Assembly: GCF_003589925.1 (NCBI RefSeq)
Contig: NZ_CP032382.1
Location: forward strand, 2,418,001-2,482,000
Source of the DNA: Chryseolinea soli
GTDB taxonomy: Bacteria > Bacteroidota > Bacteroidia > Cytophagales > Cyclobacteriaceae
DNA: 64,000 bases
Direction: 5' to 3'
The notes beneath the pieces are model-generated. The model was not told the origin of the DNA, did not search any database, and saw nothing but the letters and a program-made list of their open reading frames with translations. Within the stretch, counting starts at the first letter, position 1. Every line of letters begins with the position of its first letter. This document shows, in pieces, positions 1 to 7,321 of the stretch. Position numbers and translations under genes: made by a program.

Positions 1-340
1 CGCACGACAATAGGGCTAGTTTCCCGATTCCTTTTCTGCCAATGAAAGGCCTTCCCTTCGATGATTTAGATTGTCCACCCTGGCGCTTTGAGTAACCGAT
101 TTTTAAGAATTTGTTCTGAAAGTCATCAGCGGTCATTCCGATACCATCGTCTTTGATTACGAAATTGTTATTTGATTTGTCGATATAAATCCAAACGTTC
201 TTGGCGTCGGCGTCCCAGGCATTTGAAATGGCTTCACCCAAGACGGTGATGAAGCTTCTGTAGAGGTTTCTCCCTAGATGGTTAAGTACACTCAGCGAGA
301 TGTTGAACGAAAATTCATCGAGTTTTATTTTTTTTGCCAT
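1..340 (-). CDS. MutL/MORC-like GHKL ATPase, 3' part beyond window
   Basis: The first 113 residues are visible and the rest lies left of base 1. The ATG at 338-340 opens a frame with the N-box of the GHKL fold (GEAISNAWDADAKNV, about residues 35-49), the G1 box (KDDGIGM, about 64-70), and a glycine-rich lid (GRKGIGKLAL) near residue 102. This is the ATP-binding half of an HSP90/MutL/MORC-type ATPase. The start overlaps the 3' end of the upstream methyltransferase by 26 bp, so translation is probably coupled. Proteins of this kind are known in restriction-modification operons next to Z1 proteins and C5 methyltransferases, where they are thought to act as ATP-driven DNA clamps. The assignment to the GHKL superfamily is firm. 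The exact subfamily cannot be judged without the C-terminus. Confidence 0.85.
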   Translation of the reverse strand, partial: MAKKIKLDEFSFNISLSVLNHLGRNLYRSFITVLGEAISNAWDADAKNVWIYIDKSNNNFVIKDDGIGMTADDFQNKFLKIGYSKRQGGQSKSSKGRPFIGRKGIGKLALLSC

Positions 341-1391
341 GATGCTTACGGATATGACTTCGGATCGATTTGCCGATTACAAACCCAAGCTCTACTGGCA
401 CCGCATTTCCGATGTGAACACCAAGGTTAGTCAATTGAAAATCTTCATGCTCATCTTCAATGAATTTGTAATCCGCAGGAAATGTTTGGAGTAGCGCTGC
501 TTCTCGCACAGTCAAAGCTCGATCCTGTGTTGGGTGACCGAAACGCCCCGTGCCATAGTTATAGAATTGAGTTGTGATCGTCGGAGCTGGTTCATTCCAG
601 GTCATTCGGCCATACACCGATTTATAGCTGTCTCCCGATTCGCGTGAATGGCATGCTAACCTAAGTTCTTCGTCCCAATCAAGCCAGCTTCCGTTAGGTT
701 TGGAAGCCTTTATCCTTTTAAGATTGAGATCGGTGAGTTTTGTCGTCCTATGGAGGGGGTCAGTTTTACAAATTTCGCCGGATTGAACGGGCGGTAAATG
801 GCCAATTGCCTCTTTAGTGGTGACAAAGTGCGGGTCTTCATGGGTACTTGGAATAAGTTCTATCTTCCCGAAACGTGACGCCAATAAGACTAGCCTGCGT
901 CTCTTTTGAGGAATGCCAAACTCGGGACAATAGACGTTCGAATAAGAGACATGGTATTTTTTGGATTCCAAGAAGTTTATGAAGTCTTCAAAAATTTTTT
1001 GGTTTGACAAGTTCGGAACATTCTCCATGGAAACTATGTCGCATCCTGTTTCATCAATTAGCCGGACGAACTCGTTCAGAAGTCGCCACCTATTGCCTTT
1101 CTTTCTATGCTTGTTTTTGTTAGTGTGTGATGAGAAAGGTTGACAGGGCGCGCATCCCACAAGTATTTTGACTCGATCGTCGTCTGACCAGTAATCTTTT
1201 TTTAGCTGCTTCCCATTCAATTTAGCAATATTCTGAGCAATAAAGTCTGCCTTCACATTCGCCTTGTATGCGTATTCACAGGTGTCATCGATATCAATTC
1301 CTGCAACCATGCGGATACCGGCTTTCTTCATGCCGTATGAAAGCCCCCCTATACCACAGAATAAATCAATCGCTGAAATTTTCACTTTCAA
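315..1391 (-). CDS. dcm: DNA (cytosine-5-)-methyltransferase
   Basis: This enzyme transfers a methyl group from S-adenosylmethionine to C5 of cytosine in DNA, normally to protect host sites in a restriction-modification system. All hallmark motifs are visible: motif I FCGIGG (11-16), catalytic PCQ (82-84), ENV (123-125), QKRRRL (162-167), the long variable region with the TITTQFYNYGTGRFGHPTQ segment (271-289), and GNAVP (328-332). At 358 residues it has the normal length for a single-domain type II enzyme. It lies 71 bp downstream of the Z1 gene and overlaps the following GHKL ATPase gene by 26 bp. The target recognition domain, about residues 180-270, is short, and the recognised site cannot be read from it. 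Confidence 0.95.
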   Translation of the reverse strand: MKVKISAIDLFCGIGGLSYGMKKAGIRMVAGIDIDDTCEYAYKANVKADFIAQNIAKLNGKQLKKDYWSDDDRVKILVGCAPCQPFSSHTNKNKHRKKGNRWRLLNEFVRLIDETGCDIVSMENVPNLSNQKIFEDFINFLESKKYHVSYSNVYCPEFGIPQKRRRLVLLASRFGKIELIPSTHEDPHFVTTKEAIGHLPPVQSGEICKTDPLHRTTKLTDLNLKRIKASKPNGSWLDWDEELRLACHSRESGDSYKSVYGRMTWNEPAPTITTQFYNYGTGRFGHPTQDRALTVREAALLQTFPADYKFIEDEHEDFQLTNLGVHIGNAVPVELGFVIGKSIRSHIRKHHGKKNKTR

Positions 1392-1462
1392 TAAAAAAAT
1401 TTAAGAGGTTACAGAAAAAATAAATTTGTTAAAACAGATTTTGTCAATTGCTTCAAATTTAA

Positions 1463-3601
1463 TCATTTCTTGCTGAATACAAATGCCTGCTTGAAGACAT
1501 TTGGAACAACTATCGTGGGATAGACAAAAGTCTTGTTCTCACTTACCGGACTTCCTTTCTTCCCAGTCACAGCCATTATCCAAAGCGTAGGTATAGAATC
1601 GGCTCGTGCCTGCTTTTGCTCGTCCCCACTTAACGTACCGGATGAAAGGAATCCTCCCTCTTCAACATTTCTTGAGGCAAGACGGAACTTCAAATTGACA
1701 TTGTTACCTAGTCTTTGTTGTAACTTTTCCAATACTGAGTCTATTGTTTTGTCATGCCAAGAATTTTGTGATCTGGTCTTTATCATGGCGACTATTTCGA
1801 TGGCACGATCAGTAGAAATTTTCGCGCCTGTTCTGCCTCTTTTGTCCATTTCTTTTAGGTCAGTAATTCCGCCCAATTCTTGTGATATCATTCCTAACAC
1901 CGATCGGTACGTATTGAGTGTCTGCGGTAACTTTATATAGTTAGGATATATTTGAACGCCAGACCATATGACGTCTGTCGCATTGATGTCCAGTACTCCT
2001 CTTCTCGTTGCTCGAAGACCGGGAGAAAACTCGACAGGAAAGGCGCTGGGATTTTGCGTTGAGTTATTAAATATAAATCCGCGCAGTCCGGTGTCTGAAT
2101 AATGGATATCACGAAACCGGTAATACAATGCCTTTGTGATGAACAGTCTCGTATAGGGCAATGTTTTTAAGCGGTATCCAAACATTCTGGCATGCTGATG
2201 CATCGTGTCTATCTGCGACGAGACAGCGCTGCGTACATAGTAGGTAACGAGCAAATTTGGTATTGCGATTCCTCGCCCTAAGGTATTCCCTCCAATTAAA
2301 AAATTAAAACCAGGTCCATACTCGATACCCTGCCGCTTCGAATTTGAAGCATTGATGACAAGAATCTTTTTTCTGAGCAACTCCTGTTGTATTGTCTTCT
2401 TCAAATCTTCTAATGGCGGTGTCTTTTCGCCGAGTTGCTTTTTAAGTTGCTCATATTGTTCAGCAAGTCCTTTGTTGATTTCATAATTATCATCAAGTCC
2501 CATAAGAGCTTTTTTGACCTCAGTCAAGAAGGCTTGTATCCGCTGCGATGCGCTCTCTTGCTCTTTGTTTCGTAAACTTGGATGACAGAGAAACTGATAG
2601 CCCTTATCTCGTTCTGTGGGTCGTTGCGGAAATCCGATTGTTTTGACGGCAGCTGAACCGGAAAGCAAAAAAAATAAAATTGAATCCTTCAAGCCTGTCG
2701 GGATAGGAGACTTCAAGCTCAACAAGTTCAATTGGTCATTTCCCGGAATTATAGATACAAGACCTTTTGGGTTAGCTTCCGGTTCATCAGTATTGAAGAA
2801 ATAGTCACCTCCCACGTAGCCATCACCATGTGCAAGCATTTCAATGAATTGTGGACGATTATCGGAAGAGCCACTCTGCAGTAAAACTGCTTGCGGTGTA
2901 CCTGTTACAGAGACATAAACAGATCTCGAAAACCCCCTTCTCAATTTTTTGATGAGATTGTTTATCGCGCTTGGCTCGAGTGTCAGATCACCGGTTCTGG
3001 TTCTTTTGTAAGTGTTTGTGTCCAATGATGCTTGGTCACCTTCATCATCAAACATCAATACTGGATGGCCTTGAGCGCCGATTTTTTTTAAAAAATCAGT
3101 TATATTTTTAAGGCTGTTTACGCCTTTGGATGCAACGATCAGGAGCCTTACATCCGGATTGGCGAGGTCCAATTTTGCATCTTCAACACGCTGATCTAGT
3201 TCGTCGTCTTTCGTAAATACGCTCACACCCCTTAGGTCTTTGATAAAATCGAGATGGGTCTGACTCACCAAATCATTGATATTACTTGTCAGAACCGTAG
3301 CTATGCGAAAACCGTTGTCGAACGCCATAGCTGTGCTTACAATCATGGCTCTCGTCTTGCCACTTTGAATTCTCCCATATATAAGACCGACAGCCCCCGA
3401 TGTTGGAGCGGTTGAAGATTTGGATACACCTTTTCCATTCTTTCCCACTTGGCCTGTGCCAACAACCTGGTCATAGGAATCAACAACCTTTGTTACAATG
3501 CTCTCGGCAGTCGTTATTGCGCGCGAGCGGTCTTCGCCGGTGAGGCCTAAACTTTCGATCGTTTCATTCAGGAAACGTCCATTTGTTTCAATCATAGCCA
3601 A
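1463..3601 (-). CDS. Z1-domain P-loop ATPase/helicase-like protein
   Basis: A 712-residue P-loop protein with a Walker A motif GRIQSGKT (76-83), an acidic DDEGDQ Walker B-type motif (about 185-190), and helicase-like C-terminal motifs GGNTLGRGIAIPNL and QHARMFGYR (roughly residues 450-490). The R-M-G-Y arginine segment resembles superfamily II motif VI. This combination is typical of the Z1 domain family found in defence operons with MutL-like ATPases and DNA methyltransferases. Its likely role is ATP-driven DNA translocation or remodelling that supports restriction. No nuclease motif is seen in it. It overlaps a small upstream frame by 10 bp and sits between the HNH gene and the methyltransferase gene in the same operon. 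Confidence 0.85.
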   Translation of the reverse strand: MAMIETNGRFLNETIESLGLTGEDRSRAITTAESIVTKVVDSYDQVVGTGQVGKNGKGVSKSSTAPTSGAVGLIYGRIQSGKTRAMIVSTAMAFDNGFRIATVLTSNINDLVSQTHLDFIKDLRGVSVFTKDDELDQRVEDAKLDLANPDVRLLIVASKGVNSLKNITDFLKKIGAQGHPVLMFDDEGDQASLDTNTYKRTRTGDLTLEPSAINNLIKKLRRGFSRSVYVSVTGTPQAVLLQSGSSDNRPQFIEMLAHGDGYVGGDYFFNTDEPEANPKGLVSIIPGNDQLNLLSLKSPIPTGLKDSILFFLLSGSAAVKTIGFPQRPTERDKGYQFLCHPSLRNKEQESASQRIQAFLTEVKKALMGLDDNYEINKGLAEQYEQLKKQLGEKTPPLEDLKKTIQQELLRKKILVINASNSKRQGIEYGPGFNFLIGGNTLGRGIAIPNLLVTYYVRSAVSSQIDTMHQHARMFGYRLKTLPYTRLFITKALYYRFRDIHYSDTGLRGFIFNNSTQNPSAFPVEFSPGLRATRRGVLDINATDVIWSGVQIYPNYIKLPQTLNTYRSVLGMISQELGGITDLKEMDKRGRTGAKISTDRAIEIVAMIKTRSQNSWHDKTIDSVLEKLQQRLGNNVNLKFRLASRNVEEGGFLSSGTLSGDEQKQARADSIPTLWIMAVTGKKGSPVSENKTFVYPTIVVPNVFKQAFVFSKK

Positions 3602-3828
3602 GGGTAGTATAAAAACTGAAAACGCCCATCCATACCAATCCCAAAGGGACTAGCTGATGGATGGGCATCCATAAATTTAGAAATAATATTGTTTACAACA
3701 AACTGGTGTGGCGGCCTAAGGGCTACTTTCTTTCCTTCTTTGAAAACTTTGCCATCTGGCCCTGAGCGCATCGGTACTAGGTTGTATTGAATGACCGCAT
3801 TGCAACGCGACCCCGTCATATTTGTCAT
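3592..3828 (-). CDS. possible small protein between HNH and Z1 genes
   Basis: An open frame of 78 codons bridges the 114-bp gap between the HNH gene and the Z1 gene. It overlaps the HNH 3' end by 113 bp and the Z1 start by 10 bp. An internal ATG at 3769-3771 would give 59 residues, rich in aromatics at the end (FQFLYYPWL). No family is recognised. It may be a real, translationally coupled small gene or simply an open gap. The tight overlap with Z1 is the only support. Confidence 0.25.
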   Translation of the reverse strand: MTNMTGSRCNAVIQYNLVPMRSGPDGKVFKEGKKVALRPPHQFVVNNIISKFMDAHPSASPFGIGMDGRFQFLYYPWL

Positions 3829-4729
3829 ATGAGCTGCCTTTGAGCGTATCAGCGATCTTTACTTCTAATCGATCCGGCTCTATTCCAATCAAATCTAAAT
3901 CGAACAAGGTGTGTACATCTGAGCGTAGTATCAGTCCATTATGGATATTGTTGTCCTTGACACCGCGATATGGGGAGATATGGGCTGCCTCGAGAATGTC
4001 CTTGATTTTACAGCCGGTTACCATACAACGCTCACCATAACGCGTCATTAATTTCATCCTGAATGCCCGTTGACCTCGACGTGCTTTTATTTGGCTATTG
4101 ATTATGGCCCGCTCATCTACGTTACTTAGTTGGTACGGATTCTCAGTTGCTATTGGTAAAAGCTCCGCGGACTCGTCAGGCCCAGGGTACGAGTTCCTCA
4201 CAAAAAATTGGCGAGACATTGCTGGAAAAATCTCTTCCAGAAACTTTACATCCAGTGCTTGGATCGATAGGTTTCGATTGTAATTTCGTTTATAGTATGG
4301 ACGTATTTCGCTGATCGAAAAATCTCTTGATGGTTCAATAAATGTGCTTGGATATTCGGCTTTGAATTTGATTGAGTCAACGGTCTCTTCAATGGGCTCG
4401 TCAAATTCATGACCTCGATTACATCTGTAGAGCGGACTTTTATGGAGTCTGGCATCGTAATTCGTTGCACCGCAGTGGGGACATTTACGTCTGATTTTTA
4501 AACCTTTTTCCGTCGCAATGCTTTCGACTTTTGCGAAGCCGAGAATTTTAATTTTGTTTACAATAATGATTACATCGCCAACCTTTAGCTGCCTATGGTT
4601 GGGTACCGAGTCGTCGTAATTGTATGTGCTTTTCGTGGTGTCATTATATCCTTCGATACTCTTATAGGCTCGATCTTCATCGCTAACAGTCTTGACTATC
4701 CACAAATTTTGATCAATCATGAACGACAA
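3716..4729 (-). CDS. PUA/EVE-like, zinc-ribbon, HNH endonuclease
   Basis: A 337-residue protein in three parts. Residues 8-75 (LWIVKTV, LKVGDVIIIV, KILGFAKVESI) look like a PUA/EVE-type fold, which in known proteins reads modified bases. Residues 83-107 hold a zinc ribbon with CPHC (83-86) and C103/H107. Residues 235-285 carry the HNH_2-type nuclease core: CMVTGC, AAHISPYRG (248-256) and NGLILRSDVHTLFD (264-277). EVE-HNH proteins are known modification-dependent restriction enzymes. Here the gene sits in an operon with a 5-cytosine methyltransferase, so it could be either the restriction nuclease of the system or a type IV-like partner. Its start overlaps the NUDIX gene by 13 bp. The HNH call is firm and the EVE call is moderate. 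Confidence 0.82.
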   Translation of the reverse strand: MSFMIDQNLWIVKTVSDEDRAYKSIEGYNDTTKSTYNYDDSVPNHRQLKVGDVIIIVNKIKILGFAKVESIATEKGLKIRRKCPHCGATNYDARLHKSPLYRCNRGHEFDEPIEETVDSIKFKAEYPSTFIEPSRDFSISEIRPYYKRNYNRNLSIQALDVKFLEEIFPAMSRQFFVRNSYPGPDESAELLPIATENPYQLSNVDERAIINSQIKARRGQRAFRMKLMTRYGERCMVTGCKIKDILEAAHISPYRGVKDNNIHNGLILRSDVHTLFDLDLIGIEPDRLEVKIADTLKGSSYDKYDGVALQCGHSIQPSTDALRARWQSFQRRKESSP

Positions 4730-5109
4730 ATTTTTAAGTATTCAGTCACTACGGGAATATCGGCTGGACACCAGTCAAATGTTGCCAGTGCAAATCCAGG
4801 GCTCACCCATCTTATAGCGTTATGGTCATTCATCACTATCGGTCCGGAAATATATTTGCACACAAAAGGGATCAACTTAATTGAAATAGGACTTTGCTCT
4901 GTTACGGTTGGCGTCAGTGGTCGTATTACCTCGATTTCTATTCCCAACTCCTCACGTATCTCCCGATAAATACACTCTTCGGCGGACTCCCCTTCGCATA
5001 ATTTGCCGCCCGGAAACTCCCACTTCAAGCCTAGTTGCTTTTCTTTCGACCTTTGCGCTACAAGCACTTTTCCGTGATTCTCGATTATTGCACACGCGAC
5101 TTGTACCAT
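4717..5109 (-). CDS. NUDIX (deoxy)nucleoside triphosphate pyrophosphohydrolase, MutT/NudG-like
   Basis: A 130-residue enzyme expected to hydrolyse a (d)NTP to its monophosphate and pyrophosphate. The Nudix box is perfect at residues 35-57 (G-x5-E-x7-REIREELGI). The C-terminal segments DHNAIRWVSP and CPADIPVVTEY match the pattern of MutT and NudG, the latter known for activity on 5-methyl-dCTP and 5-hydroxy-dCTP. It is the first gene of the defence operon and overlaps the HNH gene by 13 bp. A link between a 5mC methyltransferase and a NUDIX that removes 5-methyl-dCTP from the pool would make sense but is inference. 8-oxo-dGTP clean-up, as for MutT, is the plain alternative. Confidence 0.88.
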   Translation of the reverse strand: MVQVACAIIENHGKVLVAQRSKEKQLGLKWEFPGGKLCEGESAEECIYREIREELGIEIEVIRPLTPTVTEQSPISIKLIPFVCKYISGPIVMNDHNAIRWVSPGFALATFDWCPADIPVVTEYLKICRS

Positions 5110-5474: not shown

Positions 5475-6194
5475 ATGTTAGATATTTTTTTAAGTGAAGA
5501 CAGGAACACAGTTTTTCGGGAGAAACTCGTGAACTATAAGTTCTTTTACGAGGTAAAGCACTCGGCAGCCAAGGCAAACAGTGATATCCGAATATATATG
5601 CCCGAAATTGACCGGGACGGCTATGACGTATTACTTGACGATGGCGAACAGATTGTCCCACTTCAACTAAAAACTTACCTGTCGAGCGCGACTACGAAAA
5701 GGTGGGTGGTAAACAAGGGATTGCTGAGACCTTTATACTTGAATTGCCAGAGCCTGGGGTTTGAGTTTAGTCCAGAAGGAAACGGGATTGAAGGAGGTCT
5801 TGTGGTTGTTAAAATCATAGCAAATGCCGATGAGATTAGAAGTTTTGAATGGTTTTATTCTGACTGTTATATTCTTACTGCTTTTGAAAGCGGCTTGGTA
5901 ACTCATAAGCCTAATCCTCATCTAGACCACATCACAAGTTTCATGAGTCGTCTTCGAACTGGGTATCAAAAGGAAAAACTAGAGATCACTAAACTGTGTA
6001 TGGTTAAAGTAAAATCCATCGACGATCTCCTTGCTCTTGCCGGAATGCCCTCAAAGAAGCAACAACAATGGAGGCTGTCTTTTAAAAACAGTTACCACAG
6101 TTTACGCATGGGAACCATTTCGCATGAGGAGAGATCAGAGTTGACAGACATCCTGCAAAGTCACATCGATGATCCTAGGCTTACCGTCGGTTAG
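5475..6194 (+). CDS. PD-(D/E)XK nuclease-like protein of unknown family
   Basis: A soluble 239-residue protein. Residues 44-66 contain E44-x-DRDGYD (46-51) followed by VPLQLKT (62-67), the D...QxK arrangement of PD-(D/E)XK nucleases of the Mrr-like kind, where Gln replaces the acidic residue before the Lys. A first acidic helix (E16, E26) precedes it. The rest, including the basic stretch near residues 180-215, shows no motif I recognise. It is divergent from the restriction operon and next to a broken HNH gene, which supports a defence role. Substrate and partner are unknown. The nuclease assignment rests on a short motif. Confidence 0.6.
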   Translation: MLDIFLSEDRNTVFREKLVNYKFFYEVKHSAAKANSDIRIYMPEIDRDGYDVLLDDGEQIVPLQLKTYLSSATTKRWVVNKGLLRPLYLNCQSLGFEFSPEGNGIEGGLVVVKIIANADEIRSFEWFYSDCYILTAFESGLVTHKPNPHLDHITSFMSRLRTGYQKEKLEITKLCMVKVKSIDDLLALAGMPSKKQQQWRLSFKNSYHSLRMGTISHEERSELTDILQSHIDDPRLTVG

Positions 6195-6395
6195 CAACGT
6201 CATCTTCATGAATTAAAGCAAACTGCCGAGTTCCATTCGCTAATGGCAAGATTAAGCCGACGCATGGTTTGGGTACCATTGCTGGGGCGGAGTAACACTT
6301 ATGGTAGGCCCTATGAGGGTCTTTGAATTAAGTCAAAACGAAATTTGGGCCTCGCTTTTAGAATAAAAAAGAATCACAACGTTCCAAGCCTAGCT

Positions 6396-7321
6396 ATGTC
6401 TCTTGAGTTACTGAAGAATTATTATCTACATAAGTCAGTCGAGAATCTTACCGAAAGATACATACGAGACCAAACCAATAAAACCTGCAGATATTGCCAT
6501 GGAAAATTTCCTGAGGTGACATTTCTGACGAAACCTCACATAATACCAGAACTGTTCGGGCGCAACTCTGTCACTTCAAATTTTGAATGCGATGATTGCA
6601 ATAAACGTTTTCAAAAATATGAAAGTGATACATCCAGCATGATTCAGCACTATCTGGGTTTGCTGAATATCAAAACAAAAAATGGTGTTCCCACATTTCA
6701 ATCAATCAAAAAATCAGGTGAGAACTCATCGGTGTTGAGGCGAGACGAACACCAGGTAAATCTCGCGTTTGGAACCAATGCGAATGACTTTGAATTAGAC
6801 GAAGAAAATAGAATTCTAACAATCTATTTCAGAACAAAAAAATTCATGCCATACTCAGTATATAGGACGTTCCTAAAAATGGGTATTTCACTTTTGACTG
6901 ACGACGAGCTTAGCTACAATAACCATTACTTGAAGCTTCTGAACTCAGAGGTGCCTCTTAAAAACGGTATGCAACATTGGATCGCCTACAGATATGTATT
7001 GAAACTAAATATTATTCAAAACCTCAGGTTAATCTTTATAAGGCCGAACAAACTTTAAGCGGTAAGGGAGTTTATCCGGAATACATGATGATGATACATT
7101 TTGCCAACGTTGTATTTCAATTTTTCTTGCCGATCTCCTTCAAAAATATTAGCGAGTTTGAGCCTGGAAATAATCTTCAAATTGAACTTTTCCCCGTATT
7201 CCTACTGGAGAATATTGAAAGAGTAAAAACAGTGAACATCCGTCGGTTCGATTTGAGCCAAACGAAAAAAGTCTCGGTCACCGATAAGATTGTTTTTCAT
7301 TACGGTGAGAAACATCCGTGA
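6396..7321 (+). pseudogene. HNH_5-type endonuclease, frameshifted near the 3' end
   Basis: The frame starting at the ATG at 6396 (a TTG at 6345 is also in frame) encodes CRYCHGKF, then KPHIIPELFG, then ECDDCNKRF, the Cys4/His pattern of the HNH_5 endonuclease family. This frame stops at 7058. A second frame, open through this region to 7321, continues with protein-like sequence (from about ETKYYSKPQVNLYK), so a single-base change between roughly 6980 and 7040 probably split one gene of about 305 residues. A short upstream frame at 6301-6366 could be a lost N-terminus. The gene stands beside the PD-(D/E)XK-like gene and looks like decaying defence content. A sequencing error would give the same picture. 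Confidence 0.6.

Follow-up and report, generated by a model that had tools for sequence, protein, structure and literature searches.

What is the gene of a small nucleotide hydrolase doing at the head of a restriction-modification operon? The question is raised by a locus of Chryseolinea soli at the left end of a 64,000-nucleotide stretch of DNA (the window; contig NZ_CP032382.1, positions 2,418,001 to 2,482,000), where a NUDIX hydrolase gene is followed on the minus strand by genes for an EVE-like HNH protein, a Z1 helicase, a C5 cytosine DNA methyltransferase (Dcm) and a MutL-like ATPase. This five-gene run was proposed in a preliminary description, and family matches bear it out. The locus is a known kind of methylating restriction core with a type IV front end, and the two genes of the front end are predicted to encode a nuclease that cuts modified, phage-like DNA and an enzyme that cleans nucleotides.

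The putative cutter (3716..4720, minus strand, 334 amino acids) has an EVE/PUA reader, a zinc-ribbon-like segment and an HNH domain, and the fusion of reader to HNH domain is what characterises EVE-HNH type IV endonucleases. Its top fold and profile match is to these enzymes (VcaM4I, TspA15I and CmeDI; PMC7897488), which share the N-terminal EVE/PUA reader and C-terminal HNH domain. The protein is predicted to be a modification-dependent (type IV) endonuclease. When analyzing related loci, Dcm-GHKL genes were found near the EVE-HNH gene in five of five genome loci, and Dcm linkage in these five of five compares with one of 16 loci of other HNH_2 genes from the same two genera. Note that the 16 controls were hand-picked from match lists rather than drawn at random, that three of the test loci supplied Dcm proteins to the query set, making detection easier at these loci, and that L202, L203 and L204, being related, do not count as independent. 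Pooling genome and viral loci gives Dcm linkage in 7/10 EVE-HNH loci versus 5/60 others (p 6.4e-5), where full-length viral EVE-HNH genes were defined by a 290-bit threshold that matches the genome set and was chosen after a 150-bit split had been seen, and where L278, with its EVE-HNH split across two frames, is counted among the 44 viral comparison loci. There are also 1,666 plasmid records that match the HNH protein; among nine regions inspected (27-48% identity, two of them matching only in the HNH part), a C5 methyltransferase is annotated no more than 2.3 kb from the HNH gene in L136 and L206. Support for the EVE-HNH/Dcm-GHKL association is good in genomes and weaker in viral contigs and plasmids.

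The NUDIX gene (4717..5109, minus strand, 130 amino acids) is the first of the operon and overlaps the HNH gene by 4 bp (ATGA). Its NudG/MutT-like product matches PF00293 (65.9 bits) and the PADLOC family PDC-S07 (146.3 bits), and its Nudix box is complete by eye. The top match among solved structures is the CTP pyrophosphohydrolase 2rrk, which we take to be NudG. Against the NudG equivalog model NF007834 (PRK10546) the window protein scores 92 bits, under the 156-bit cut-off. Escherichia coli NudG (Orf135) favours 5-methyl-dCTP, with a kcat/Km about 28 times the CTP value, figures from two different studies that are tabulated in PMC5158307.

A NUDIX match at E 1e-20 occurs in 162 of 296 genomes of the phylum. 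Many lower-scoring matches sit within frames of 350-440 amino acids, as MutY-NUDIX fusions would be expected to. Among the best-scoring 30 loci, one per genome, the NUDIX gene lies directly upstream of a PLD-helicase open reading frame in 16, mostly with a stop/start overlap; some of the 16 are near-identical, and they represent at least three lineages in the tree. PLDc_2 and ResIII were found in 8/8 of these frames scanned by Pfam, all cut by the locus end, and DUF3427 additionally in 4/4 proteins fetched whole, which is the SauUSI architecture. In one case (L260, 652-4035) the PLD-helicase-DUF3427 protein downstream of a NUDIX gene additionally matches Peptidase_S24-like in its C-terminal region (23.6 bits against a cut-off of 23.3). 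That MutT homologues adjoin SauUSI homologues is stated in a figure legend of PMC7641849. The open-licence PMC literature searched yielded no proposal as to why, no paper on type IV restriction together with a Nudix hydrolase, and only unrelated passages co-mentioning DUF3427 and Nudix; combining at least four of Nudix, very short patch repair, cytosine methyltransferase, restriction-modification and HNH endonuclease returned only an unrelated phage paper. As at the window locus, a NUDIX gene of this PADLOC family immediately precedes the gene of a predicted nuclease for modified DNA at the SauUSI-type loci, but the nuclease is PLD-helicase-DUF3427 there and EVE-HNH here. The NUDIX/type IV association is supported by way of a different nuclease family, and its joining with the EVE-HNH/Dcm-GHKL pairing in one operon is seen at this locus only.

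These pairings suggest a protective role for NUDIX-type cleaning enzymes, which would shield the cell against its own nucleases for modified DNA. For the partnership with EVE-HNH we infer a mechanism in which cleaning of the nucleotide pool by the NUDIX enzyme would make a modified-DNA nuclease affordable to the cell. Several observations weigh against this. The preliminary description proposed that neighbourhoods be compared, and while the HNH gene kept its Dcm-GHKL company in genomes, no NUDIX was detected near five EVE-HNH genes of other genomes or five of viral contigs using the window protein alone (genomes) or three NUDIX proteins (viral contigs) as queries, from which a distant NUDIX would escape. 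In addition, a PLD-helicase neighbour is lacking for 14 of the 30 NUDIX relatives, and in the tree the NUDIX of the window is placed outside every PLD-helicase-linked clade. With none detected near other EVE-HNH genes, and given this placement, the NUDIX/EVE-HNH pair may be a single event. Within viral contigs alone, EVE-HNH/Dcm linkage is not significant (2/5 versus 4/44, p 0.11), Dcm not being found in three of five EVE-HNH loci, and the 150-bit split shows no linkage (4/25 versus 2/24), with the caveat that 150 bits admits proteins matching the HNH part alone. Seven of the nine plasmid regions, around weaker HNH relatives (L135, L137, L140, L207-L210), have no annotated C5 methyltransferase in gene tables that are incomplete. 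Finally, for a reader of 5-methylcytosine, the host 5-methylcytosine that Dcm produces should be hazardous.

The front end is also set apart from the core by promoter-like elements and a hairpin. The promoter consensus has only two matches in 9.7 kb of minus strand, both called by consensus alone: an exact one before Dcm (1454..1483, TTTG-N18-TAAATTTG) and one with a single mismatch between the HNH and helicase genes (3672..3702). The hairpin (3621..3669, minus strand) lies in a fold of 3690-3586 with -37.3 kcal/mol and z -4.76, and none of 200 shuffles was equally stable.

Turning to the core, Dcm (315..1391, minus strand, 358 amino acids) matches PF00145 (193.7 bits), as the sole such match found in the whole genome, and TIGR00675 (121.6 bits, cut-off 100.65). 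The helicase, of superfamily 2 (SF2) and encoded at 1463..3595 (minus strand), matches PF10593 (111.5 bits) and PADLOC Helicase_II (267.3 bits). Across 40 aligned sequences its motifs GRIQSGKT, DDEGDQ and DTMHQHARM.G show no or almost no variation, F472 being the sole exception within DTMHQHARMFG (residues 463-473), and 10 of these 11 positions fit the SF2 motif DThhQXuRhFG given in PMC2292703, with H at the second h. The GHKL (MutL/MORC-like) ATPase gene (1..340, leftward to window -1339; genome C1:2416661-2418340; minus strand; 559 amino acids) codes for an N-terminal GHKL plus S5-fold module typical of MORC/paraMORC restriction operons. Next to it lies the Vsr endonuclease gene (genome C1:2416248-2416655, window -1752 to -1345), matching TIGR00632 (129 bits, cut-off 97.85). 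The C-terminal part of the ATPase appears HEPN-like by motif: R520-D-x3-H525 is present in 33/34 rows and E437x3R441 in 34/34, in predicted helices 509-524 and 431-447 that we assigned as helices 3 and 2. This agrees with the HEPN RNase definition in PMC3710099, namely a helix 3 that ends in Rx4-6H with a polar residue after R, and Ex3[KR] in helix 2. Weighing against it, the tail has no sequence match to a HEPN family. The fold-match lists are occupied by the GHKL part. In the open-licence PMC literature searched, a single paper brings together HEPN, GHKL and restriction-modification.

The core thus shares its GHKL-S5 ATPase, SF2 helicase with near-DThhQXuRhFG motif, C5 methylase and Vsr (often found with the methylase) with the MORC/paraMORC restriction-modification operons of Iyer, Abhiman and Aravind 2008 (PMC2292703). 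The interpretation first proposed is supported in part. The locus differs from those operons in its seemingly HEPN-like ATPase tail and in its NUDIX and EVE-HNH head, which goes unmentioned in the consulted part of that paper, where HNH proteins are known from SNF2- and paraMORC1-type operons. Nor was a nuclease of their restriction endonuclease (RE) fold type recognised: for the NRE of the third operon type, Vsr was the only RE-fold family matched, with three neighbouring proteins having no Pfam match. No PLD or DUF4420 nuclease was matched among operon genes, and no MzaD, MzaE, DUF4420, PLD or AIPR, the last having been expected left of base 1, among ten proteins scanned. The B3-PLD R-protein of CglI/NgoAVII (PMC4267653) was likewise not recognised. 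The BbrUII/HgiDII model NF050001 matches only the N-terminal part of the ATPase (model positions 1-367, residues 10-374; 294.7 bits, cut-off 550), its C-terminal part being unmatched.

Downstream, 44 bp past Vsr and on the same strand, is a putAbiC-like gene (L002 11262-12203, window -2738 to -1797) followed by two genes without Pfam match, possibly of the same island. The right flank has on the plus strand a divergent gene without family match (5475-6194) and a gene for an HNH_5 protein (6345-7058). Neither is matched at the equivalent site in G002, a genome of the same genus.

At that G002 site lie genes for one HNH_2 and one PLD protein (L271, 5797-7577), which indicates a defence hotspot. 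The NUDIX and HNH genes could be passengers at a hotspot gathering unrelated systems, their order being accidental. We regard this as rather unlikely given the contrast in Dcm linkage between EVE-HNH and other HNH_2 genes in the two genera, and the overlap of the two head genes. Far less probable still is one MZA-like anti-phage system needing all parts together, NUDIX and HNH included, as the MzaB and MzaC models score far below cut-off (19.3 versus 850 and 85.5 versus 1500 bits), MzaD and MzaE are unmatched, promoter-like elements lie within the operon, and core units are found elsewhere without the head pair.

If a nucleotide-cleaning partner for the modified-DNA nuclease is indeed what the NUDIX gene provides, type IV restriction would gain a metabolic partner, a cleaner of the nucleotide pool. 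This would explain the small MutT-like genes adjoining SauUSI-type enzymes, as well as the inclusion of PDC-S07 among PADLOC's defence models, and it predicts that loss of NUDIX would render the partner nuclease toxic during salvage of modified deoxycytidines. The recurrence of EVE-HNH beside Dcm-GHKL suggests that defence is generally laid out on two fronts, one facing unmodified phages and the other modified ones.
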